Part shown: positions 2,693 to 16,375 of the stretch, in pieces
Position numbering within the stretch: position 1 is the stretch's first letter
Layout: every line of letters starts with the position of its first letter
NCBI GenBank assembly: GCA_902571235.1
Contig: CACGBI010000010.1
Coordinates: forward strand, 1 to 41,685
From: an uncultured Pelagibacteraceae bacterium
GTDB lineage: Bacteria > Pseudomonadota > Alphaproteobacteria > Pelagibacterales > Pelagibacteraceae
Length of the DNA stretch: 41,685 nucleotides
Direction of reading: 5' to 3'
Made by a program: the position numbers and the translations under genes
Notes under the pieces: generated by a model
What the model was told of the DNA's origin: nothing
The model's input: only the letters and a program-made list of their open reading frames with translations
Database searches by the model: none

Positions 2693-4410
2693 TGCGGAAA
2701 TTCAATAAGAAAAAATTGCCAAGTCGACATACATCTTTAGGAGCTGATAGAGCCCCACATAGATCATTTTATTATGCAATGGGTGAAACTGAAAAAGATG
2801 TCTCCAAACCATTTGTAGGTGTTGTATCCACATGGAATGAAGCAGCTCCGTGTAATATTGCATTAATGAGACAAGCTCAATCTGTTAAAAAAGGTGTTAG
2901 AGCTTCAGGCGGTACTCCAAGAGAATTTTGTACAATTACAGTTACTGACGGTATTGCAATGGGTCATGAAGGAATGAAGTCTTCATTGATTTCTAGAGAG
3001 GTAATTGCAGATTCAGCAGAACTTACGGTAAGAGGACATTGTTATGATGCATTAGTAGGCATTGCAGGTTGTGATAAATCTTTACCAGGTTTGATGATGT
3101 CGATGGTTCGACTAAATGTTCCAAGTGTTTTTATTTATGGAGGATCAATACTACCAGGAAGATATAAAGGTAAAGATGTAACTGTTGTAGATGTTTTTGA
3201 AGCTGTTGGAAAACATTCTTCGGGACAAATGTCTGCAAAAGAATTAAGAAAATTAGAATTAGTTGCATGTCCTAGTGCAGGTGCTTGTGGTGGTCAGTTT
3301 ACAGCAAATACTATGGCGTGCGTATCTGAAGCGATTGGATTAGCATTACCTTATTCAGCAGGAACTCCAGCCCCTTATGAAGAAAGAGATAAGTACGCAA
3401 AGTTAAGTGGTAAAATGGTAATGGAATTACTTGCCAAAAGAATTAAACCAAGAGATATCGTTACAAGAAAAGCATTAGAAAATGCTGCAACAATAGTTGC
3501 TGCAACAGGTGGTTCAACTAATGCAGCATTACATTTACCAGCTATTGCAAATGAAGCAGGAATTAAATTTGACTTAATGGATGTTGCAAAAATATTTAAA
3601 AAAACACCTTACCTAGCTGATTTAAAACCAGGTGGAAAATATGTTGCAAAAGATATGTGGTTAGCTGGTGGTGTGCCAATGCTATTGAAAACTCTTTATG
3701 ATGGTGGCTATATCCATGGTGATTGTATGACAGTTACAGGCAAAACAATGAAAGAAAATTTAAGAGGAATTAAATTTAATCCTAAACAAAAAGTGTTAAG
3801 AGCTTATAATAGGCCATTATCACCTGATGGAGGTGTTGTTGGATTAAAAGGTAATTTAGCTCCCGAAGGTGGAATTGTTAAAATTGCAGGTTTAAAAAAA
3901 TTACAATTTACTGGAAAAGCGAGATGTTTTGATAATGAAGAAAGTGCGATGAAAGCAGTTCAAAGCAGAAAATACAAAGATGGTGATGTGATAATTATAA
4001 GATATGAAGGACCAGTAGGTGGACCGGGTATGAGAGAAATGCTTTCAACAACAGGTGCTATTTATGGTCAAGGTAAAGGAGAAAAGGTTGCTCTAATTAC
4101 TGACGGTAGGTTTTCAGGAGCAACTAGAGGCTTTTGTGTAGGTCATGTAGGACCAGAGGCAGCTTTAGGTGGACCTATAGCTCTATTACGTAATGGTGAT
4201 ATTATTGATATTGATGCCAAGAAAGGAACAATTAACGTTCGATTATCAAAAGCACAATTAGCTTCAAGAAGAAGAAAATGGAAAGCTAGAAAATCTGATT
4301 TTGGATCAGGTACTCTTTGGAAATACGCTCAAACTGTTGGACCAGCATATTTAGGAGCTCCAACTCATCCAGGAAAGAAAAAAGAAGTTAAGGATTACTC
4401 GAAAATTTAA
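2692..4410 (+). CDS. ilvD: Dihydroxy-acid dehydratase
   Basis: Fe-S dehydratase of the IlvD/Edd family; it converts 2,3-dihydroxy-isovalerate or -methylvalerate to the keto acids of valine, leucine and isoleucine synthesis. The 572 aa length is normal. Three cysteines at 54 (AAPCNIAL), 127 (AGCDKSLPG) and 199 (GACGGQF) match the ligand spacing of the [2Fe-2S] subgroup. [10 protein letters not shown] and [11 protein letters not shown] are family landmarks; the active-site serine region is in the second. The ATG overlaps the valS stop. The gene is visibly less A/T-biased and more Gly/Ala-rich than its downstream neighbours, as expected for a conserved core enzyme. The same family includes sugar-acid dehydratases; the residues seen fit IlvD best, but substrate cannot be proven from sequence alone. 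Confidence 0.92.
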
Positions 4411-5597
4411 TGAAAATTCGCCCAGTTATCTTATGTGGTGGAGCAGGAACTAGACTTTGGCCCAATGATAAAAAACATCAAGCTAAGCAGTTTATCGATT
4501 TTGGTAATTGGACTTTATTTGGTAAAACTTTAGAAAGAGTAAAAACGTCTATATTTGACTCGCCAATAATAAGTACGAATACAAAATATTTAAAACAAGT
4601 TAAAAAACATTTAAAAAAACATAAAATTAGAAAGTTTAAAATAGTTTTAGAGCCAGCTAAAAGAAATACAGCACCAGCTATCTTAAGTACGGCACTAATA
4701 AAGGATATTCCAAACGAACAACCTATAATATTTTTAGCAGCTGATCATTTGATAGAGAAGGTTAGTTTATTTAATAAAGCTATAAAAAAAAATCAAAAGA
4801 GATTAACTCAGAATAATATCTTTATCTTTGGAATTAAACCTACTAAACCATCTAATGAATTTGGTTATTTTTTAACAAGAAATAACAAAGTAACTAGATT
4901 TGTAGAAAAACCAAAAGAGGCTAAAGCTAAACAAATAATTAGTAAAAAAGGTTATTGGAATTCTGGAATGTTTTATTTGAGAAAAGACTCAATAATTAAT
5001 AATTTCATGAATTATCAACCAAATATTTACCGAAATTGTAAAAAAGCTGTAACAAAAGCAAAATATAAAAGTAATGTATATTATTTAAACAAACAAGCAT
5101 TTACCAAAGTAACTTCCAAATCTTTTGATTATGCAATATTAGAAAAAACAAAAGATATAAGCGCTATTAAATTAGATATTCCTTGGTCTGATTTAGGTTC
5201 TTGGAAAGAAATCTGTAAGATGTATGGAAAAAATAAAAGACAATATTTTAAAAAGCAAAATATATTTCATAGACCTTGGGGTAATTATGTAAATTTATTT
5301 AAAGGTAAAAAATTCTTGATCAAAGAACTATATGTAAAACCTAAAGGTATTCTAAGTCTTCAAAAACATCACCATAGAGCAGAACATTGGGTAGTTACCC
5401 AAGGAAAACCTAGGATTACTTTAAATAAAAAATATTTTACTATGAAGCCTGATGAAACTATTTTTATTCCTTTAGGTTCAGTTCATAGAATTGAAAATCC
5501 TTACAAAAAACCAGTTAAGATTATTGAAGCTCAGATTGGATCTATATTAAAGGAAACGGACATCGTGAGGTATCAAGATATTTATGGAAGAAATTAA
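4410..5597 (+). CDS. manC: Mannose-1-phosphate guanylyltransferase (ManC/AlgA-like, short form)
   Basis: Makes GDP-mannose from mannose-1-phosphate and GTP for surface polysaccharide. The N-terminus carries the nucleotidyltransferase signature GGAGTRLWP (residues 10-18) and a conserved Lys in the following HQAKQF; FVEKPKEA and WNSGMFYL are typical sugar-nucleotidyltransferase motifs. From about residue 290 there is a cupin (RPWGNY ... QKHHHRAEHWVVTQG ... IFIPLGSVHRIENP) like the phosphomannose-isomerase half of bifunctional ManC/AlgA. At 395 aa it is shorter than the usual 460-480 aa bifunctional enzymes, so the inter-domain region is condensed; whether isomerase activity is retained is unclear. 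It overlaps the ilvD stop (TAATG) and its own 3' end overlaps the LicD-like gene by 14 bases, which ties it to the surface-modification block downstream. Confidence 0.87.
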   Translation: MKIRPVILCGGAGTRLWPNDKKHQAKQFIDFGNWTLFGKTLERVKTSIFDSPIISTNTKYLKQVKKHLKKHKIRKFKIVLEPAKRNTAPAILSTALIKDIPNEQPIIFLAADHLIEKVSLFNKAIKKNQKRLTQNNIFIFGIKPTKPSNEFGYFLTRNNKVTRFVEKPKEAKAKQIISKKGYWNSGMFYLRKDSIINNFMNYQPNIYRNCKKAVTKAKYKSNVYYLNKQAFTKVTSKSFDYAILEKTKDISAIKLDIPWSDLGSWKEICKMYGKNKRQYFKKQNIFHRPWGNYVNLFKGKKFLIKELYVKPKGILSLQKHHHRAEHWVVTQGKPRITLNKKYFTMKPDETIFIPLGSVHRIENPYKKPVKIIEAQIGSILKETDIVRYQDIYGRN

Positions 5598-6279
5598 GAT
5601 GATTAGATTTTATCCAAATATTGTTAATAAAATATTAAGAAAAATTGAAATTGTATTTACGAGAGAAAGTCCTGATAAAATAAGAATGAGAACAACTCAT
5701 GAATTAGAAATAAGAAAAAGTGAGTTTTTAAAAATATGTAATTTATTAGACAAACTTCAAATTAGATATTTCTTAGCAGCTGGGACTTTACTTGGAGCAA
5801 TTAGACATAAAGGATTCATACCATGGGATTGGGATGTAGAATTAAGTGTTTATTCTAATGAAGTAGAACAAAAAATGGATCAGTTATTATCTGAAATAAA
5901 AAACTCAGGATTTATTATTGAAAAATATTCAAAAGATTTATCTAAATTGAAAATAGATTTTATTGGTAAATTACCAAAAGAAACAACATCATATACAATT
6001 CAAGGATGGAGTCATAATAAAAAAAAAAAAGTTTATTGGAGAAATAAATTTCAAATACCTGAAAACTTAATTGATAATATGAATAAAATAAGATTATTTG
6101 ATAAAGATCATTTAGCTCCCTATCCACCAGAGAATTACTTAGAATATCAATATGGTAATTGGCAAAAACCAATTAAAACAAGTGATAAAAGTTTATATTT
6201 AACTAGAAGATTTTCCGGAATTTCTATTATTGAAGTTTTGATTAAAAAAATTATCAGATTGATTAAATCAGATAACTAA
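5584..6279 (+). CDS. LicD/fukutin-family phosphotransferase
   Basis: LicD proteins transfer a phospho-group such as phosphocholine from a CDP-activated donor onto a glycan. The family core is clear: FLAAGTLLGAIRHKGFIPWD (residues 63-82) followed by WDVELSVY. The usual metal-site pattern WDDDIDI reads WDWDVEL here: Asp82 and Asp84 remain, the middle Asp is Trp83 and the last acidic position is Glu86. A C-terminal YPPENYLEYQYGNW segment is also LicD-like. No membrane segment is evident. The ATG overlaps the manC 3' end; a second ATG at 5599, just after the manC stop, is an alternative start. Because a putative CDP-phosphoramidate pathway lies just downstream, this is the best candidate in the window for the transferase that uses that donor, but this is inference; phosphocholine or another phospho-group is possible. 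Confidence 0.8.
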   Translation: MEEIKMIRFYPNIVNKILRKIEIVFTRESPDKIRMRTTHELEIRKSEFLKICNLLDKLQIRYFLAAGTLLGAIRHKGFIPWDWDVELSVYSNEVEQKMDQLLSEIKNSGFIIEKYSKDLSKLKIDFIGKLPKETTSYTIQGWSHNKKKKVYWRNKFQIPENLIDNMNKIRLFDKDHLAPYPPENYLEYQYGNWQKPIKTSDKSLYLTRRFSGISIIEVLIKKIIRLIKSDN

Positions 6280-6352
6280 ATATTAATATATTATTCAATC
6301 CAAATATGTAATTTATAATATAAATTGAAATTTATTTAAGTATATTTAAGAA

Positions 6353-7525
6353 GTGCTGATCATATCATACATAATTATATTAATTGTACTTATAGAATTT
6401 TTTTTATTACTTAATATTAAATTTTTACAATCAAAGATTCCATGGATTATCACAGAAAAAGATGAATACCCATCATTTAAAAAAGATAAAATAAAAAATT
6501 TTTTGAAGAAGACTCATGATCCCTTATTAGGATGGAATTGGAAACCCAATACAAAACATGAAGAAAAAGTAAATAATAAAAGTAATAATATTTTTTTTGG
6601 TAAATTAGGAGAAAGAAAAACAACCTTGCTTAAAAATAAAAGTTTTAAATTTGCATCATTTGGAGACTCTTTTGTATTTTGTAGATATGTTAAGAATAAT
6701 CAAACTTGGCAAAATTATTTATCTAAATCATCAAAATCTAATGGACTTAACTTTGGTGTTGGCAATTATGGTTTAGATCAAATATATTTAAAATATTCAT
6801 CTACCAATATTCCTAAAAATATAAAAACTGTCTATATTGGATTTGTGCCAGAAACATTATCTAGATGTCTATCATCATGGAAACATTATCAGGAATTTAA
6901 TAATATATATGCATTTAAACCAAAATTTAATTTAAAAAACAAAAAATTAATTTTAAGAAATAATCCAATTCAATCTATGAAAGATTTTGATAGAATTGAA
7001 AAGTTAATCAATGAATTGAAAAAAAGTGAATTTTTTTATGAAGAAAAATTTCTAAAATATAAGTTAAGTTTTCCATATTTAATTTCGTTTATGAAAAATA
7101 TTAAGCATAACTATAATTTAATATTTTTCTCATTTTTGAAAATATTAAACATAAATCAAAATAAGATTTATGACTTTATAATTAATACAAATTGTAAAAA
7201 AAATGATTATTATTTTACAAAAAAAAATAATACAGATTTAATATATAAACTGTTGCTGAGTATTGATAGAATATCTAAGAAAAAAAATCATAAATTAGTT
7301 TTTTTAATTTTTCCTCAAAAATACGACTTATCAATTAAAAACAAAGCTTATCAAAAGTTTTTTCTGAGAATTAAGAATAAATTTAATGTTATCGATTTTA
7401 CTGAAATTTTTCAGAAAGATGACGTTAAAAAACTATATTTAGAAGGTAAGTATGGGGGCCATTTAACATCTTATGGAAATAAAGTTGTAGCTCAAACAAT
7501 ATTAAAAAAAAGATTAATTAATTAA
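6353..7525 (+). CDS. Membrane-anchored SGNH/GDSL-like protein
   Basis: Residues 1-21 form one hydrophobic segment (signal anchor), so the rest is probably periplasmic. DPLLGWNWKPN (56-66) followed by FASFGDSFVF (100-109, putative nucleophile Ser106) is the arrangement seen in SGNH-fold proteins of polysaccharide loci. NFGVGNYGLDQ (133-143) resembles block II, and GGHLTSYGNKVVA (368-380) resembles the C-terminal His block with His370. The Asp normally found just before that His is not obvious (Tyr367 is at the usual DxxH position), so the catalytic set may be incomplete or rearranged. The start is GTG with a weak purine-rich site; no better in-frame start was seen. Such proteins often add or remove acyl groups on glycans; the substrate here is unknown. 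It occupies the place held by methyltransferase genes in the Campylobacter phosphoramidate locus. Confidence 0.6.
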   Translation: MLIISYIIILIVLIEFFLLLNIKFLQSKIPWIITEKDEYPSFKKDKIKNFLKKTHDPLLGWNWKPNTKHEEKVNNKSNNIFFGKLGERKTTLLKNKSFKFASFGDSFVFCRYVKNNQTWQNYLSKSSKSNGLNFGVGNYGLDQIYLKYSSTNIPKNIKTVYIGFVPETLSRCLSSWKHYQEFNNIYAFKPKFNLKNKKLILRNNPIQSMKDFDRIEKLINELKKSEFFYEEKFLKYKLSFPYLISFMKNIKHNYNLIFFSFLKILNINQNKIYDFIINTNCKKNDYYFTKKNNTDLIYKLLLSIDRISKKKNHKLVFLIFPQKYDLSIKNKAYQKFFLRIKNKFNVIDFTEIFQKDDVKKLYLEGKYGGHLTSYGNKVVAQTILKKRLIN

Positions 7526-7561
7526 TTAAATATAATATAGATTTATTTATAATTCTTAAAT

Positions 7562-9874
7562 ATGAACATAAGTACTAAAGCAAACACATTAGAAATAATT
7601 AAAAAATATAATAATAAGATTGTACCTAAATTTTTATTTTTTAAGAAAAAGTATTTTTTAAAAAAAAAAAATGATTGTATTAATAATATTAAGAAACAAT
7701 TTAATTGCGATATTATAATAAGATCTTCTGCTTTAAATGAAGATAGTAAAAAAAATAGCAGGGCTGGTTATTATGATTCTCACATTGTTAAGAAAAAAAA
7801 TTTCAGTGTAATTGAAGAAAAGATACATCATATAATTCGAAAATTTAAGAATGATAATGATCAAATCTTAATACAAAAATTTATTAGTAAACCAGATATT
7901 GCTGGTGTTGTTTTTACTAAGGATAAAACAACAAATTCTCATTATTATGACATTAATTATGATAAATCTGGTAAATCAGATTTGATTACCTCTGGTAAAT
8001 TTAACCCTACTTTAAAATCAACTACTATATTCAAAGACTGTAATTATATTCCTGATAAGTTTAAACAATTAATTAAAGTTATTAAAGTATTAGAAAAAAC
8101 TTTCAATAATGACAGACTTGATATTGAATTTTGCATTAAAAAAAATAATTTAAGTATACTTCAATGTCGACCTTTACTTGGTCATAAAAAAAAAGTTAAT
8201 AAACAAAAACTTAATTTAGTTTTAGCTAATCTTGCAGCAAAATTTGATAAAACAAATCAAAAAAACGAAACTTTATTTGGTAACAAAACTGTGCTCTCAA
8301 ATATGTCTGATTGGAATCCGGCTGAAATGATTGGAAGAAAACCTTCTCAATTAGCTTCATCTTTATATTCTGAGTTAATTACTAATTCTATTTGGTCTCA
8401 ACAACGATCTGACTATGGTTACAAAGATGTTTATCCAAATAAATTGATGCTTAACTTTGCAGGCACACCTTACATTGATTTAAGAGTTGACCTTAATTCT
8501 TTTTTACCAAGAAATTTGAATGAAAATATTTCAACAAAATTAATTAATTTTTATATTAATAGAATTACAAAAAATCCAGAAATACATGATAAAATTGAAT
8601 TTGAGCTAATTAACACTTGTTTTGACTTTTCATTGTTGAATAATAAATCTTTACCCCTAAAAAAATCAGAGAAAAAAGTTTTCATATCTTGTTTAAAAGA
8701 ATTAACAAACAAAATTATCAATCCAAAATATAATGTTCTGAATAAGGAAATTAAAAGAATTGATATTTTGAAACAAAAAATTTCATCTATAAAAAGATCA
8801 AAGCTAAGCCATATTCAAAAAATATACTATTTAATCAGTGATTGTAAACGTTTTGGTACATTATCATTTGCTGGTATAGCAAGGTGTGCTTTCATTAGTA
8901 AAAGTATTTTAGATAGCTTATTAAAAACAAAATTAATCAGTAATAAAGATTTGGAAAATTTTTATTTATCTTTAAATACAATTTCAAAAAAAATTAATCA
9001 TGACTATTATATATCCAAAAAAAAGAATTCATTTAAAAATTTTTTATCAAATTATGGTCATTTAAGACCTTCAACTTATTCTATATTAACTAAAAATTAT
9101 GAAAAAAATTTTAGAAATTATTTCTCAAATGAATCAAAAGAACCATTTTTAAAGAATAAAAATAAATTTAAATTTGATAAGAAAAAAATTAATAAGATTA
9201 ATAAGATATTTAAAAAAAATTCGTTAGAATTTAATTTTGAACAATTTATTAATTTTGCAAAAAAATCAATTGAACAAAGAGAGTACTCAAAATTAATTTT
9301 TACAAAATCAATAAATGAAATTTTTATTAATCTTGAAAATTTAGCAAATGAAACGGATATAGATGTTAAAAAATTCCAACATTTAGATATAGATATTATA
9401 CTCAAATCTTTTAATAACTTAGAGCAAGAAAGATTGAGAAAAATTATCTCAAGAAATATAAGTATTAATGAAAAATCTTATAAGTTTTCGCAATTTATTT
9501 TGTCGCCAGATGTAATAACTGATAAAAAAGACTTTTATATTTTCCAAAATATTAGTTCAAAGGAAAACTATATTTCTAAAGAAACTCAGATAGGTGAAAT
9601 AATAGAATTAAATAAGATTAGCAATTTTAAACTTGTCTCTAACAAATTCGTATTAATTGAAAATGCTGATCCAGGGTTTGATTTTTTATTTTCATATAAT
9701 ATTAAAGGATTAGTGACTAAATACGGTGGTTCCAACTCTCATATGGCTATAAGATGCATGGAACTAGGTTTACCGGCTATAATTGGAGTTGGTGATAGAG
9801 TTTATAAAGATTTTGCAAGATCTAAAAAAGTTTATATAGATTGTAATAACAAAAAATACTCAATAATTCATTAA
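7562..9874 (+). CDS. PEP-synthase-like kinase, probable L-glutamine kinase (Cj1418-like)
   Basis: The N-terminal third is an ATP-grasp domain of the PPDK/PEP-synthase type: IIRSSALNEDS then SRAGYYDS (about 51-74), with a downstream LDIEFCIKKNNLSILQCRP segment. The C-terminus is a mobile phosphohistidine domain, KYGGSNSHMAIRCMELGLP, with His727 as the expected phosphorylated residue. It ends soon after (770 aa), so the PEP/pyruvate TIM barrel of true PEP synthase or PPDK is absent; the middle 400 residues are Lys/Asn-rich and not recognisable. This architecture and length fit the L-glutamine kinase Cj1418 of Campylobacter jejuni, which phosphorylates the amide nitrogen of glutamine with release of AMP and Pi, and also the related rifampin phosphotransferases. 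The three downstream genes, in Campylobacter order, decide in favour of glutamine kinase. Its TAA overlaps the next ATG (TAATG). Confidence 0.8.
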   Translation: MNISTKANTLEIIKKYNNKIVPKFLFFKKKYFLKKKNDCINNIKKQFNCDIIIRSSALNEDSKKNSRAGYYDSHIVKKKNFSVIEEKIHHIIRKFKNDNDQILIQKFISKPDIAGVVFTKDKTTNSHYYDINYDKSGKSDLITSGKFNPTLKSTTIFKDCNYIPDKFKQLIKVIKVLEKTFNNDRLDIEFCIKKNNLSILQCRPLLGHKKKVNKQKLNLVLANLAAKFDKTNQKNETLFGNKTVLSNMSDWNPAEMIGRKPSQLASSLYSELITNSIWSQQRSDYGYKDVYPNKLMLNFAGTPYIDLRVDLNSFLPRNLNENISTKLINFYINRITKNPEIHDKIEFELINTCFDFSLLNNKSLPLKKSEKKVFISCLKELTNKIINPKYNVLNKEIKRIDILKQKISSIKRSKLSHIQKIYYLISDCKRFGTLSFAGIARCAFISKSILDSLLKTKLISNKDLENFYLSLNTISKKINHDYYISKKKNSFKNFLSNYGHLRPSTYSILTKNYEKNFRNYFSNESKEPFLKNKNKFKFDKKKINKINKIFKKNSLEFNFEQFINFAKKSIEQREYSKLIFTKSINEIFINLENLANETDIDVKKFQHLDIDIILKSFNNLEQERLRKIISRNISINEKSYKFSQFILSPDVITDKKDFYIFQNISSKENYISKETQIGEIIELNKISNFKLVSNKFVLIENADPGFDFLFSYNIKGLVTKYGGSNSHMAIRCMELGLPAIIGVGDRVYKDFARSKKVYIDCNNKKYSIIH

Positions 9875-10491
9875 TGAAATCAATAGTCTTATCTCCTAAA
9901 ATTAAAATTGATCAATTTAAAAAAATTAATTTTATTATTGATGAAGATTTATCTGATTTTATAAAAGATTTAGAACTAAGTATTCAACCAATTTCATTTA
10001 AAAAAAAATATAAAATTAACTTTCAAAATATAAGATCTGCTTGTGGGCTTATCTTAGCAGGTGGTGGTGATTTATACGAATATAAGAAAACAAATGAAAA
10101 TAAAATTAGAGATGATTATGAACGATATTTATTTAATTATTTTTTAAAAAAAAAGAAGCCAATCTTATTAATTTGTAGAGGTTTTCAATTATTAGCTAAA
10201 TTAAATAATATTAAGTTATTAAAAATTAAAAAACACGTTAGAAAATTTCATCTTTTAAAATTAAAAAAAAGCAGATTTATAAAAAACAAATCATTACATG
10301 TAAACTCATATCATAATTATTATATTAAACATTTACCAAAAGACTATGTTAGTGTTTCTTCAACAAAAGACGGTTCCATAGAAATAGCAGAACACAAATA
10401 TAAAAAGATTTTATGTTTAATGTTTCATCCTGAGAGACCTATGGGATCAAAAAAGTTGATTTTAAAAAGTTTAAAAAAGTTTTTTTCATGA
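9874..10491 (+). CDS. Class I glutamine amidotransferase-fold hydrolase, probable gamma-glutamyl-CDP-amidate hydrolase (Cj1417-like)
   Basis: The fold signature is PILLICRGFQLLAKL with nucleophile Cys101, and MFHPERP with His185 and Glu187 completing a Cys-His-Glu triad. AGGGDLYEY and HVNSYHNYYIK are the substrate-side landmarks of the gamma-glutamyl hydrolase (PuuD/Peptidase C26) branch. At 205 aa it is a stand-alone domain with no synthase part. In the Campylobacter phosphoramidate pathway the homologue Cj1417 cleaves CDP-L-glutamine to CDP-amidate and glutamate. Overlaps at both ends (TAATG with the kinase, 4 bases with the nucleotidyltransferase) show tight coupling. Taken alone it could be any gamma-glutamyl amide hydrolase; the pathway role comes from context. 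Confidence 0.8.
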   Translation: MKSIVLSPKIKIDQFKKINFIIDEDLSDFIKDLELSIQPISFKKKYKINFQNIRSACGLILAGGGDLYEYKKTNENKIRDDYERYLFNYFLKKKKPILLICRGFQLLAKLNNIKLLKIKKHVRKFHLLKLKKSRFIKNKSLHVNSYHNYYIKHLPKDYVSVSSTKDGSIEIAEHKYKKILCLMFHPERPMGSKKLILKSLKKFFS

Positions 10492-11234
10492 ATTTGATAT
10501 TATTAGCAGCAGGAAAAAGCTCACGTATTTTTAAGAAAATTAAAAAAAATAAATGTTTAATAAAAATAAATCAAATTTCATTGATTAGACATATAATAAA
10601 TAGTGCAAAATTTTATTTAATTAAAAATATTATGGTTATAACTGGTTTTAAACCTAATAATATTAAATCTGAATTAAAAGATTTAAATGAAATTAATTTT
10701 ATTAACAATAATAAATATCAGTCTACAGATATGGTATATTCTTCTATTTTAGGACTTAAAAAATCAAAATTAGATACATTAATTTCATATACCGATATAA
10801 TTTTTTCAAAAAAAATATTTAAAATTTTTTATAAAACAAAAAATAAATACATCACAATCCCTTATATAAAAAATTGGAAATATGTATGGAATAAAAGAAA
10901 TAAAGACATTTTTGATGATGCGGAAACTTTTATCGTAGACTCAAATTCAAACTTAAAAGAAATTGGAAATGTAATAGATGAAAATAATTTGAAAACAATC
11001 AATGGTCAATTTCTTGGTGTTATATTCATTCCAAAAAATTGTATAAAAATTATCATAAAAAAATATAAATCTTTTAATAATAAAAATTTACAATTCACTC
11101 AATTTATTAATAGATTAATTAAAGATAAAATTAAGATTAAATGTGTTGAATACAAAGATTTTTGGTATGAGTTTGATGATTACGAGGATTTAACTAATTT
11201 TAAAAAAATAAAGAATATTAATTTAAAAAAGTAA
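10488..11234 (+). CDS. Nucleotidyltransferase, probable CTP:phosphoglutamine cytidylyltransferase (Cj1416-like)
   Basis: The GT-A-type nucleotidyltransferase start is plain: LILLAAGKSSRI (residues 3-14) with Lys22-Cys-Leu-Ile-Lys following, then MVITGFK, the metal-binding ISYTDIIF Asp, DDAETFIVD, GQFLGVIFI and a C-terminal WYEFDDYEDL. The ending resembles small cytidylyltransferases such as LicC, which activate a phospho-compound with CTP. In Campylobacter the corresponding Cj1416 joins CTP to L-glutamine phosphate to give CDP-L-glutamine. The 248 aa length fits a single-domain enzyme. It overlaps the hydrolase gene by 4 bases (ATGA) and is followed, after 59 A/T-rich bases, by the APS-kinase-like gene. 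The choice of CTP over other nucleotides is inferred from the cluster. Confidence 0.8.
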   Translation: MNLILLAAGKSSRIFKKIKKNKCLIKINQISLIRHIINSAKFYLIKNIMVITGFKPNNIKSELKDLNEINFINNNKYQSTDMVYSSILGLKKSKLDTLISYTDIIFSKKIFKIFYKTKNKYITIPYIKNWKYVWNKRNKDIFDDAETFIVDSNSNLKEIGNVIDENNLKTINGQFLGVIFIPKNCIKIIIKKYKSFNNKNLQFTQFINRLIKDKIKIKCVEYKDFWYEFDDYEDLTNFKKIKNINLKK

Positions 11235-11293
11235 TATAAAAGAATTAATTATTAAAATTATATTGAATTAAAATTTTATATTATTGAGGTTTT

Positions 11294-11815
11294 ATGAAGA
11301 AGTTTAATAAAAAAAGTGGAATTTTTTTTTGGATCACTGGTTTACCTGGCTCTGGAAAAACAACAATAGCTAAAAATATTCATAATAAAATTACTAGATT
11401 ATATGGACCAACAATCTTACTTAGTGGTGATGATATAAGAAAATCCTTCAATCTTAAAAGTTATGATTATAAAGAAAGAATTAAATTATCCATAAGATAT
11501 AGTAAATTTGCAAAAAGAATTACAAAACAAAAAATAAATGTAATTTATGCTGTAGTTGCTTTATTTGAAAAAACAAGAAAATGGAACCGCAAAAATTTTG
11601 ATAATTATTTAGAAATTTATATTAAGTCAGATATTAAAAAAATAATTAAACAGAAAAAAAAGAAAATTTATCACAAGAAAAATATTAAGAATATTTGGGG
11701 AAAAGATTTAAAACCTGAATTTCCTAAAAACCCTAATATTATTATAAATAATAATTTTAAACTAACTACAAAACAGTTATCTAATAAATTATTTAAAAAA
11801 ATCTCTAATTATTAA
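11294..11815 (+). CDS. APS-kinase-like kinase, probable CDP-amidate 3'-kinase (Cj1415-like)
   Basis: P-loop kinase of the adenylylsulfate-kinase family: WITGLPGSGKTTIAK with the Walker A motif at residues 16-23, LLSGDDIRKSF (the DGD-like substrate segment) and YAVVALFEKTRKWNR, matching the region where APS kinases carry their lid. 173 aa is near the usual size. No sulfate-activation genes (cysN, cysD, cysH) are near, so sulfate assimilation is an unlikely role. The Campylobacter homologue Cj1415 phosphorylates the 3'-hydroxyl of cytidine diphosphoramidate, making a PAPS-like donor, and this gene has the same last place in the gene order. A GAGG ribosome site lies 4 bases before the ATG. A hairpin terminator follows within 15 bases of the stop, closing the block. 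Confidence 0.8.
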   Translation: MKKFNKKSGIFFWITGLPGSGKTTIAKNIHNKITRLYGPTILLSGDDIRKSFNLKSYDYKERIKLSIRYSKFAKRITKQKINVIYAVVALFEKTRKWNRKNFDNYLEIYIKSDIKKIIKQKKKKIYHKKNIKNIWGKDLKPEFPKNPNIIINNNFKLTTKQLSNKLFKKISNY

Positions 11816-11828
11816 AAATAATGAGATA

Positions 11829-11862
11829 AAGTAGCCGTGCTAAATTAATAACACGACTACTT
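11829..11862. terminator. Hairpin terminator shared by convergent genes
   Basis: An 11-base arm AAGTAGCCGTG (11829-11839) pairs with CACGACTACTT (11852-11862) with one C-A mismatch, around a 12-base A/T loop. It lies between the stop of the kinase gene (11815) and the stop of the minus-strand PiT-like gene (11871), and A/T-rich flanks on both sides could supply U-runs in either direction. It is by far the most GC-rich short stretch nearby, in keeping with a bidirectional terminator. Confidence 0.65.
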
Positions 11863-11870
11863 AAATAAAT

Positions 11871-12836
11871 TTAAAACCAATTATTTGGAATGATTATGTA
11901 GTGAATTGCTAAAACAATTCCAACGGATACACTTAGTCCAAAGATCATTTTAAGAAAGTCTTTACCAATTAATGGGAAGACATACTTAAACTTATAATCT
12001 TTGTTCATTGTTGAAATTGCAAGTTCTCTACCACATAATAATCCAACGAAAACCCATGTGGTTGACATAGGCAAATCATTAAGTTCTTTAAAGTAGTATA
12101 AAACACCTGCATAAATTACATTGATAATTGTAGCTGATCTTGCATATCTAGTTCCAGTTTTTTCTAAAACTACAGTTTGTATTCGTCCACCCTGAATGTA
12201 GAAGATGTAAAATAATAAAACCGTAAAATATGCCATTACAGTAAGCAGAATTGTTATATCCAGTTGTCTTGGAAGATATACAGCGATGTTTGCTACATCG
12301 TGAGATAACCAAACCCACCATAGCCAACCCGAAGTAACCCATACTGAGTTTCTCCAAAAGCCTATATATTTTTCATCAACTTCATCTAATTTTTCATTGA
12401 TAAATTTTGATACAACAATCCAAGCAATATAAGCGACCATTGCTGCTAAACCATAACCAACTACACTTTTTAACAACATTTTTTCAAGCACAACTGTTGA
12501 AGCAAATGCTGAAAGAACTAAAAAGGTTGTTGATACAGGTATTCCAATTCTTGTTAATAATAGTAATATTGCAGGCGCTACTGCATGATACCACTGAATT
12601 TCTTGATAAGGTATTCTAGTTAATCTTCCATAAGAAATATCACCATCATATGAATACCATCCCCAAGCTAACGCAAAAATCATTACAGCTGATGCAGATC
12701 CTGCAAGTGTATACCATTTAAACCACTTCTTTTTTGAAGCTATAAATGTACCAAGTGTTTGAATTGAGTCGTTAGCGATTACGCTATAACCGGCAAGGGC
12801 AAACCCTATAACCGTGTAAATTAAAGTCATTTCCAT
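11871..12836 (-). CDS. PiT-superfamily permease (divergent)
   Basis: 321 aa integral membrane protein with about eight or more hydrophobic segments. It shows the internal duplication of PiT inorganic phosphate transporters: half 1 has IANDSIQTLGTF (AND at 21-23) and PVSTT (100-104); half 2 has SHDVAN (178-183) and PMSTT (256-260). Canonical PiT proteins carry GANDxxN in both halves, so the first Asn/Asp pair is kept, the second GAND is altered to LSHD, and the loops are short. The general role is probably ion-coupled uptake of phosphate or a similar oxyanion; the substrate is uncertain. A good ribosome site (AGGAG, seven bases before the ATG) supports the start. It is convergent with the putative phosphoramidate block and has a 165-base leader with a hairpin. 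Confidence 0.65.
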   Translation of the reverse strand: MEMTLIYTVIGFALAGYSVIANDSIQTLGTFIASKKKWFKWYTLAGSASAVMIFALAWGWYSYDGDISYGRLTRIPYQEIQWYHAVAPAILLLLTRIGIPVSTTFLVLSAFASTVVLEKMLLKSVVGYGLAAMVAYIAWIVVSKFINEKLDEVDEKYIGFWRNSVWVTSGWLWWVWLSHDVANIAVYLPRQLDITILLTVMAYFTVLLFYIFYIQGGRIQTVVLEKTGTRYARSATIINVIYAGVLYYFKELNDLPMSTTWVFVGLLCGRELAISTMNKDYKFKYVFPLIGKDFLKMIFGLSVSVGIVLAIHYIIIPNNWF

Positions 12837-15298: not shown

Positions 15299-16375
15299 AT
15301 GAAAAACATTAAAAAGTTACCATTTATACTATCAATATTATCTTTATTAACTATTTTTGCACCAGCAAATGCTGATGTAAAAGTTGTTACATCAATAAAA
15401 CCTATACATTCATTAGCAAGTTATTTGATGGATGGGGTAGGTAAACCAGATTTAATAGTAGATGGTTATGCTTCACCGCATGGATTTGCATTGAAGCCAT
15501 CGCATGCAAAGATGCTACAAAATGCTGACTTAATTTTTTGGGTTGGAGAAGACTTAGAAAGCTTTTTAGAAAAACCATTAAAATCTATAGCCAAAAAAGC
15601 TGAAAAAATAGAATTAATGGAAATTAAAGGATTAAATAAATTAAAATTTAGAGAAAGAAACATATTTGATGAACATGATGATCATGGACACGACGATCAT
15701 GCTAAAAAAGAAGATGATCACGATGACCATGGACATGATGAAGATGGCCACAAAGAAGATGATCACGATAAAGAAGGTCATAAAGAAGATGATCACGATG
15801 ACCACGGGCATGATGAAGATGGTCACAAAGAGGATGATCACGACGACCACGGTCATGAAGGTCACGCTCACGGAGAACATGATCCACACATTTGGTTAGA
15901 TCCAATGAATGCTAAAGTAATATTAGAAGAAATGACTGAACATTTAATCGAAAATGATCAAGCAAATGCTTCTAAATATAAAGCTAATTTAAAGAAAGCA
16001 CACAAAGATTTAGATAAACTTACTAAAAAAGTAAAATCTGAATTAAATAAAGATTTTAAATCGATCGTTTTTCATGATGCATATCAATATTTTGAAAAGA
16101 GATTTGATGTAAATGTATTAGGTGCCTTCACTGTAAATACAGATGTAATGCCTGGAGCAGAACAATTAGCAGAAATTAGAGAAATAATTGAACATGACAA
16201 AGTAAGTTGTGTGTTTTCTGAACCTCAATTTAATCCTGATATAATCAATGCAGTTGCAAAAGATATGAATATTAGCACAGGTGTTTTAGATCCTTTGGGA
16301 GCAACTCTTAACCCAGGTAAAGATTTATATTTTGATTTAATCAGCAACATGTCAAAATCTTTCAAAGGCTGTTAA
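15299..16375 (+). CDS. znuA: Zinc ABC transporter substrate-binding protein
   Basis: 358 aa periplasmic zinc-binding protein. Residues 1-25 are a Sec signal peptide (Lys-rich start, hydrophobic core, ANA cleavage site). The mature part begins VKVVTSIKPIHSLASYLM; conserved His61 (ASPHGFAL), the HDPHIWLDP block (194-202) and a FHDAYQYF His are the metal ligands expected for cluster A-I binding proteins. Between residues 126 and 197 there are 21 histidines in an acidic, repetitive loop that is the ZnuA zinc-sensing or chaperone loop. Two cysteines, one in VSCVFSEPQF and one at the very C-terminus (FKGC), could form the disulfide known in E. coli ZnuA. It diverges from znuC and is controlled by the shared Zur sites. 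Confidence 0.95.
   Translation: MKNIKKLPFILSILSLLTIFAPANADVKVVTSIKPIHSLASYLMDGVGKPDLIVDGYASPHGFALKPSHAKMLQNADLIFWVGEDLESFLEKPLKSIAKKAEKIELMEIKGLNKLKFRERNIFDEHDDHGHDDHAKKEDDHDDHGHDEDGHKEDDHDKEGHKEDDHDDHGHDEDGHKEDDHDDHGHEGHAHGEHDPHIWLDPMNAKVILEEMTEHLIENDQANASKYKANLKKAHKDLDKLTKKVKSELNKDFKSIVFHDAYQYFEKRFDVNVLGAFTVNTDVMPGAEQLAEIREIIEHDKVSCVFSEPQFNPDIINAVAKDMNISTGVLDPLGATLNPGKDLYFDLISNMSKSFKGC
15707..15856 (+). repeat. In-frame repeats coding the ZnuA His/Asp loop
   Basis: Four units beginning KEDDHD start at ZnuA residues 137, 152, 162 and 177 (steps of 15, 10 and 15 residues). The units at 137 and 162 share a 16-residue block KEDDHDDHGHDEDGHK exactly in protein, with some third-position differences in DNA; the one at 177 matches for ten residues. 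This points to expansion by in-frame duplication with later drift. Confidence 0.85.

Follow-up and report, generated by a model that had tools for sequence, protein, structure and literature searches.

The window analysed here, a stretch of 41,685 nucleotides from an uncultured Pelagibacteraceae bacterium (assembly GCA_902571235.1), is contig 10 of a draft genome of 0.9 Mb in 41 contigs with a completeness of 72.55%. It contains six consecutive genes on the plus strand which we consider likely to be a horizontally variable cassette for making, and probably also for using, a nucleotide-activated phosphoramidate. An initial annotation, made from the sequence alone, had described a four-gene unit of the type of Cj1418-Cj1415 from Campylobacter jejuni, which constitute the pathway for the donor of O-methyl phosphoramidate (PMC11800397, PMC3907429). 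The four genes are present on the plus strand and the first three overlap, as had been stated; the actual unit, however, has six genes and starts at position 5584. The genes of the cassette are listed below (aa, amino acids; CDP, CTP and CMP, cytidine di-, tri- and monophosphate; APS, adenosine 5′-phosphosulfate).

5584..6279, plus strand: LicD-family protein, 231 aa, first gene of the cassette and candidate phospho-group transferase (Pfam PF04991, E 3.5e-12); overlaps the end of manC
6353..7525, plus strand: U390, 390 aa, starting with GTG; an N-terminal membrane helix is followed by an SGNH-fold domain; candidate for a phosphoramidate transferase or for an enzyme linked to the donor
7562..9874, plus strand: GlnK, 770 aa, ATP-grasp/phosphohistidine kinase of the NF004508 family with His727; predicted L-glutamine kinase
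9874..10491, plus strand: class-I GATase-fold hydrolase (GATase), 205 aa, with Cys101/His185/Glu187; predicted gamma-glutamyl-CDP-amidate hydrolase
10488..11234, plus strand: CytT, LicC-type cytidylyltransferase, 248 aa; predicted CTP:phosphoglutamine cytidylyltransferase
11294..11815, plus strand: APS-kinase-like P-loop kinase, 173 aa (PF01583, NF004041); predicted CDP-amidate 3′-kinase or APS-type kinase

GlnK, the hydrolase and CytT (genes 1-3) overlap by 1 and 4 bases, and a gap of 59 bases lies ahead of the kinase (gene 4).

The trio of glutamine kinase, hydrolase and cytidylyltransferase

At E ≤ 0.01, GlnK matches the Pfam domains PPDK_N and PEP-utilizers, while no phosphoenolpyruvate (PEP) barrel is found at this threshold and the protein ends after the phosphohistidine domain. 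This bears out the initial annotation, which had seen PEP-synthase-like domains without the barrel and had pointed to His727, a residue that proved to be invariant in all 37 aligned relatives having that column. GlnK scores 768 bits against NCBIfam model NF004508 (cut-off 501), presumably the family of Cj1418, and at most 45 bits against the other models listed. The rifamycin phosphotransferase model NF041857 is among the latter, with 31.8 bits and a missed cut-off of 999. Identities as rifampin phosphotransferase and as PEP synthase were rejected because of scores and architecture, the C-terminal PEP/pyruvate barrel of PEP synthase or pyruvate phosphate dikinase being absent. The outcome named beforehand as speaking against the Campylobacter-type assignment, best matches inside these families, thus did not occur at the level of sequence. 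A named relative with 44% identity is the GlnK of another uncultured Pelagibacteraceae bacterium (L021); together with the genome size, it is the basis for calling the bacterium SAR11-like.

An AlphaFold2 model of GlnK, built from 14 sequences, has a mean predicted local distance difference test score (pLDDT) of 88.7 and a predicted template modelling score (pTM) of 0.86. The nearest solved fold is that of rifampin phosphotransferase, which provides the sole near full-length matches among the solved structures listed (5fbt with Z 19.0 and a root-mean-square deviation (rmsd) of 9.7 Å over 594 aligned residues; 5hv1 with a Foldseek E-value of 2.8e-20). The large rmsd to 5fbt points to a different domain arrangement. 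Judged from its sequence and model, GlnK is built like a rifampin phosphotransferase, yet belongs to another family. The GlnK proteins of four other loci (L051, L056, L085, L086) are extended at the N-terminus by a further domain of about 260 aa, which by weak matches resembles a degenerate nucleotidyltransferase; a separate CytT is also encoded in these loci.

The hydrolase has a Pfam match to Peptidase_C26/GATase at E ≤ 0.01. Its best NCBIfam model is NF045546 (gamma-glutamyl-CDP-amidate hydrolase) with 114.2 bits, the next model reaching 38.8 bits, and all 13 aligned members of its family, the window included, match NF045546 at E ≤ 1e-5 (best 6e-55). The triad Cys101/His185/Glu187, which the initial annotation had named for this class-I GATase-fold hydrolase, is intact in all 36 aligned relatives. 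CytT matches NTP_transf_3 at E ≤ 0.01. A profile of its family (17 members), when compared to solved structures, has its best match to LicC (1jyk, E 9.8e-27), followed by 6pd1, which is presumably PntC. From these two matches, CytT is likely to be a CTP-using enzyme. In the CytT tree, the window protein lies inside a clade of seven rows, all of them linked to GlnK. At the level of sequence, the assignment of genes 1-3 to a glutamine-kinase/CDP-amidate pathway is well supported.

Insertion site and distribution

The extent of the cassette became evident by comparison to a related genome (G072, locus L154) in which the site is empty: valS, ilvD and manC are followed, within about 30 bases, by a convergent gene for a 321 aa membrane protein. 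Between these same flanks the window has LicD, U390, GlnK, GATase, CytT and the kinase, at 5584-11815. The flanking features are:

4410..5597, plus strand: manC-type GDP-mannose gene to the left of the insertion and outside it; its position is syntenic in relatives
11830..11863, no strand assigned: hairpin-like stretch past the last gene, read by eye; its position corresponds to that of a comparable hairpin downstream of manC in the empty site (L154)
11871..12836, minus strand: 321 aa membrane protein, bounding the insertion on the right; in G072 its gene comes immediately after manC

The GC content is about 0.19-0.23 within the insertion and 0.27-0.35 to its right; manC at the left is already at about 0.25. 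Other relatives carry differing genes after manC. Repeats were looked for at the ends of the insertion and nothing convincing was found there. The 321 aa membrane protein has no Pfam match at E 0.01, resembles a phosphate or sulfate permease by eye, and is present in three of the 11 genomes searched, counting that of the window. Further to the right, at 15299-16375, the window codes for a zinc-binding protein of the znuA type, which has a long repeat rich in His, Asp and Glu; its tblastn match to L154 is broken over the repeat, perhaps merely by the low-complexity filter.

The closest relative, G028 (L053), has the gene order manC-LicD-U390-GlnK-GATase-CytT, as found in the window. Its CytT is only 35% identical to that of the window and belongs to a different clade, and a kinase was not found, so that the right part of the cassette has probably been exchanged. 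The ratios of nonsynonymous to synonymous polymorphism (pN/pS) between window and G028 are 0.26 for GlnK, 0.41 for the hydrolase, 0.41 for U390 and 0.30 for LicD, which points to purifying selection on these four genes. CytT has a value of 0.65, the pair not being close counterparts.

Of 397 genomes drawn evenly from a larger group of the order, 32 have GlnK at E ≤ 1e-60, and 27 of these are above the cut-off. The figure of 32 is a lower bound, as in two GlnK-negative genomes (G167, G378) a CytT is located at the contig end, where GlnK may have been cut off. Five of 61 near relatives, a set overlapping that of the order, have GlnK above the cut-off. GlnK was also detected in 9 of the 199 other genomes drawn from the phylum, and relatives occur on 14 plasmid records. 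A survey of other SAR11 genomes for the gene order, as proposed with the initial annotation, shows that the arrangement is more than chance: GATase is directly 3′ of GlnK in 30 of 34 SAR11 loci, and GlnK-GATase-CytT occur in this order in 25 of the 34, window included (L081, where GlnK is outside the counting cluster, was left out, and some loci are cut by contig ends). Outside SAR11, the genome G534 shows GlnK-GATase-CytT-APS kinase-U390 in one order; picking of open reading frames was crude in the high-GC loci outside SAR11, and L147 showed no GlnK there. In a tree of 41 GlnK sequences most of those from SAR11 group together. The SAR11 label requires three changes on this tree, at least two of them by well-supported branches, which suggests that GlnK has been transferred more than once. 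No match from Campylobacter was found in the genome contigs scanned with one window protein, a scan that recovers close relatives only, nor in plasmid and phage collections.

Two records deserve separate mention. On plasmid pVa1 of Vibrio alfacsensis (L085), GlnK-GATase-CytT are located beside cysD/cysN and a CDP-glycerol glycerophosphotransferase-like gene. A faecal scaffold that is unverified and deposited as bacteriophage (L087, MT837632.1) codes for a GlnK relative with 29% identity, and is perhaps bacterial DNA.

The kinase and the candidates for the transfer step

Gene 4 codes for an APS-kinase-like protein, with an E-value of 8.3e-22 to PF01583 (APS_kinase) and 143.7 bits to NF004041, above the cut-off of 127. 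A comparison of defence-system models to the window gave no convincing match; those to VakA, mad8 and dCTPase concern the kinase and are of a weak, generic P-loop kind. APS-kinase-like kinases are commoner where GlnK is present (20 of 32 GlnK genomes versus 50 of 365 others in the order set); p-values for the co-occurrence of kinase or U390 ignore the relatedness and incompleteness of the genomes. ATP sulfurylase (CysD, TIGR02039; Sat, TIGR00339) was found in none of the 34 GlnK genomes, the window's 72.55%-complete draft included. It is present in 12 of 43 kinase-bearing genomes without GlnK, the Sat matches being below the curated cut-off; seven kinase-bearing genomes from another family in the order were left out of this search. 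A NVVG-type motif was considered as a separator of APS kinases from CDP-amidate kinases and rejected, since it is present in most Sat-linked kinases, too. In G135 (L189, 2631-5945), an ATP sulfurylase gene adjoins that for an APS-kinase-like kinase, with a weakly matched sulfotransferase near, all within 3.3 kb. These three genes are a possible sulfation module in a genome of the SAR11 order, which is said to have no complete sulfate assimilation.

U390 matches no Pfam family above its cut-off. An AlphaFold2 model from seven sequences (pLDDT 87, pTM 0.88) has its best solved match in CgnD (8a2n; Z 18.4, rmsd 3.4 Å, 230 aligned residues), and the fold is also near to those of lipases, TesA and PatB. 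Ser106, Gly135, Asn138 and His370 are invariant in all 12 aligned members, in which the usual catalytic Asp three residues before the His is replaced by Tyr, His or Glu. U390 occurs in 10 of the 397 genomes of the order, and nine of these ten also have GlnK (p 4e-10, relatedness ignored).

The genomic position of U390 links it to the kinase. The two genes directly adjoin in five SAR11 genomes (G067, G175, G179, G189, G118), and GlnK loci of two non-SAR11 lineages (L022, L151) have U390 immediately behind the kinase. In G274 (L130:6240-8078), both are fused into one natural protein of 612 aa, with U390 at residues 4-431 and the APS-kinase-like domain at 440-604. In the window the GlnK-GATase-CytT trio lies between U390 and the kinase, and in G112 both are at contig ends. 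G028 and G385 have U390 while a kinase was not found; in G385, a Glyphos_transf gene adjoins U390. Activated donors are used in the cytoplasm. Lys and Arg residues follow the membrane helix of U390, and the first residues are mostly uncharged (exceptions are Lys in L053 and in the fusion, and Glu in L022). Because of these positive charges, and because the fused kinase needs ATP, the U390 domain probably faces the cytoplasm. A U390 relative is also encoded on a haloarchaeal plasmid, from Natrinema thermotolerans (L153:7890-9149), where the annotation shows neither GlnK nor a kinase within 8 kb of it. We consider U390 the best candidate for the transfer step; in the open literature of PubMed Central (PMC), no report on a U390-type SGNH partner was found.

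Two further families may act in transfer. Among 68 genomes searched, LicD is found near GlnK in the window and G028 alone, and LicD as a general partner of GlnK was rejected. One cluster of Glyphos_transf-type genes occurs in six SAR11 loci that have the trio, in four of them straight after CytT. Only three of its six members have a match to PF04464 with an E-value of 2e-4 or lower, of which two exceed the cut-off. The kinase is absent from all six loci, and also from the five of these genomes which were searched as a whole. This suggests that the pathway exists in two forms, with and without a 3′-phosphate. A general mutual exclusion of Glyphos_transf and kinase genes was rejected, as G334 and G351 have the kinase plus a more typical Glyphos_transf gene, both near GlnK; exclusion holds for the one cluster alone. 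Overall, Glyphos_transf genes occur in 7 of 34 GlnK genomes versus 2 of 34 GlnK-negative ones, a weak enrichment for which we claim no significance.

Proposed pathway and comparison with known systems

In the pathway that we propose, GlnK would act as L-glutamine kinase and CytT would join its product to CMP from CTP. The hydrolase would then strip glutamate to release CDP-phosphoramidate, and the APS-kinase-like enzyme may add a 3′-phosphate. LicD and/or U390 would move the group onto a cell-surface glycan precursor at the inner membrane face. We infer the substrates and the reaction order from C. jejuni, and the transfer step and its acceptor are likewise deduced. Relatives of the cassette are surrounded by surface-polysaccharide genes (NeuB, formyltransferase, Glyphos_transf, methyltransferases), from which a decoration of the surface can reasonably be inferred. 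A far-reaching version, which we put forward as a speculation that is rather unlikely to hold in full, is that SAR11 surfaces show P-N (phosphorus-nitrogen) groups and that U390 is a cytoplasm-facing, membrane-anchored SGNH-fold transferase. It would pass the group from (3′-phospho-)CDP-phosphoramidate via a serine adduct to lipid-linked glycans, with the Glyphos_transf-type enzyme acting instead in some kinase-less loci.

Several observations weigh against the proposed pathway. The likeness to Cj1415-Cj1418 is indirect, being set by family models, architecture and gene order. NF004508 carries the label "hypothetical protein" alone, and the hydrolase, at 114.2 bits, misses the curated cut-off of 250 for NF045546. 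LicD occurs in 3 of 34 GlnK genomes versus 1 of 34 hand-picked GlnK-negative genomes, and in the closest relative, G028, the kinase was not found. In a tree of 45 kinases, the window kinase groups apart from most of those found beside glutamine kinase. It belongs to a clade of 12, of which seven are from genomes without detected GlnK or ATP sulfurylase, three from Sat genomes and two from GlnK loci. One of the seven, from G167, has a GlnK-type CytT as its neighbour at a contig end and may be a GlnK-associated kinase. As the clade is mixed, gene 4 is predicted to be either a CDP-amidate 3′-kinase or an APS-type enzyme. The Cj1418-Cj1415-type pathway of the initial annotation is mostly upheld by families, residues and operon structure for genes 1-3, the hydrolase matching its model below the curated cut-off. 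For the CDP-amidate kinase, the APS-kinase-like family and the co-occurrence with GlnK agree with it, while the clade also holds kinases beside ATP sulfurylase.

Genes 1-3 might therefore make CDP-phosphoramidate without a 3′-phosphate, with gene 4 being an APS-type sulfation kinase that is in the cassette by chance. At 59% identity, the window kinase resembles that of G210, where Sat has a match, and it clusters with the kinases of G135 and G270, the former being the one beside ATP sulfurylase. In addition, the six SAR11 loci with the trio and a Glyphos_transf-type gene indicate that the kinase is not always needed. However, the kinase is within the insertion, its type co-occurs with GlnK, and neither CysD nor Sat was found in the incomplete draft of the window or in any of the 34 GlnK genomes. 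We take this to be a serious possibility, although we lean against it. For U390, the view that it is an ordinary SGNH esterase or acyltransferase on the same polysaccharide, linked to the cassette merely via the shared glycan, is evenly balanced with its negation. The fold close to lipases, TesA and PatB, the haloarchaeal plasmid relative, and the occurrence of U390 in G028 and G385, where no kinase was found, argue for it; the fusion to a kinase domain, the adjacency to the kinase in unrelated lineages and the positive charges which place the domain in the cytoplasm argue against it.

The two other alternatives concern the trio itself. CytT could activate phosphocholine or aminoethylphosphonate, with LicD as the transferase and with GlnK and the hydrolase serving elsewhere, and the profile matches to 1jyk and 6pd1 as well as the LicD gene at 5584 fit such a phosphocholine-like decoration. 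We nevertheless consider it improbable, as 25 of 34 loci combine CytT with GlnK and the hydrolase, LicD being absent from most of them, and as neither a gamma-glutamyl-type hydrolase nor an ATP-grasp/His kinase is known to take part in phosphocholine transfer. That GlnK is a phosphotransferase inactivating drugs or other small molecules, of the rifampin phosphotransferase kind, would agree with 5fbt and 5hv1 being its only near full-length structural matches among those listed, but is very improbable given the large difference in scores between NF004508 and NF041857 and the conserved operon with hydrolase and cytidylyltransferase.

Few cases of P-N bonds are known from biology, and an enzymatic route to them has been characterised for the Campylobacter capsule. 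SAR11 are among the most abundant cells of the sea. If they make the same donor, P-N compounds may plausibly make up a hidden share of the organic phosphorus in the sea, and nitrogen and phosphorus would be spent on surface variation by a nutrient-starved group. U390, the Glyphos_transf-type genes and LicD provide concrete candidates for the transfer step. Nothing relevant on phosphoramidate in SAR11 or Pelagibacter was found in the open PMC literature. The initial annotation had also considered a role in phage interaction, for which no evidence was obtained: a scan of viral contigs with two short patterns gave 22 matches and no GlnK relative among them. In Campylobacter the phosphoramidate group is a phage receptor (PMC5808241), and the variable SAR11 cassettes are for this reason a testable candidate for phage-host specificity.

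When compared to known systems, GlnK shares ATP-grasp, helical middle and phosphohistidine domain with rifampin phosphotransferase, as well as the missing PEP barrel, and differs by its sequence family and its operon partners. With APS kinases and the sulfation modules that depend on 3′-phosphoadenosine 5′-phosphosulfate, the window shares an APS-kinase-like enzyme whose clade includes kinases beside ATP sulfurylase; in contrast, the window kinase has been inserted together with GlnK, and ATP sulfurylase was not found in the 72.55%-complete draft. LicC/LicD phosphocholine decoration is resembled by a LicC-related CytT and the presence of LicD, but the partners are a glutamine kinase and a gamma-glutamyl hydrolase, and LicD is not conserved. 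U390 has the fold of SGNH hydrolases (CgnD, TesA, PatB) and their Ser, Asn and His (Ser106, Asn138, His370), and differs by the Tyr, His or Glu in place of the usual Asp, by its membrane anchor and probable cytoplasmic location, and by its linkage to P-N donor genes.

The Campylobacter pathway differs from the window cassette in several respects. The transferase candidates are LicD and U390, Cj1421/Cj1422 being the known transferases, no methyltransferase is found in the cassette by Pfam, the genes are part of a six-gene insertion, and the kinase is predicted to be of CDP-amidate or APS type. The same four enzyme types are present, however, in the order which the initial annotation gave, the best NCBI model of the hydrolase is named for a reaction of that pathway, and the relatives of the window genes likewise have a polysaccharide context. 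By analogy, the cassette very probably works like the Campylobacter donor pathway, and the six-gene unit with its SGNH partner is best read as a variant of it in a SAR11-like bacterium.

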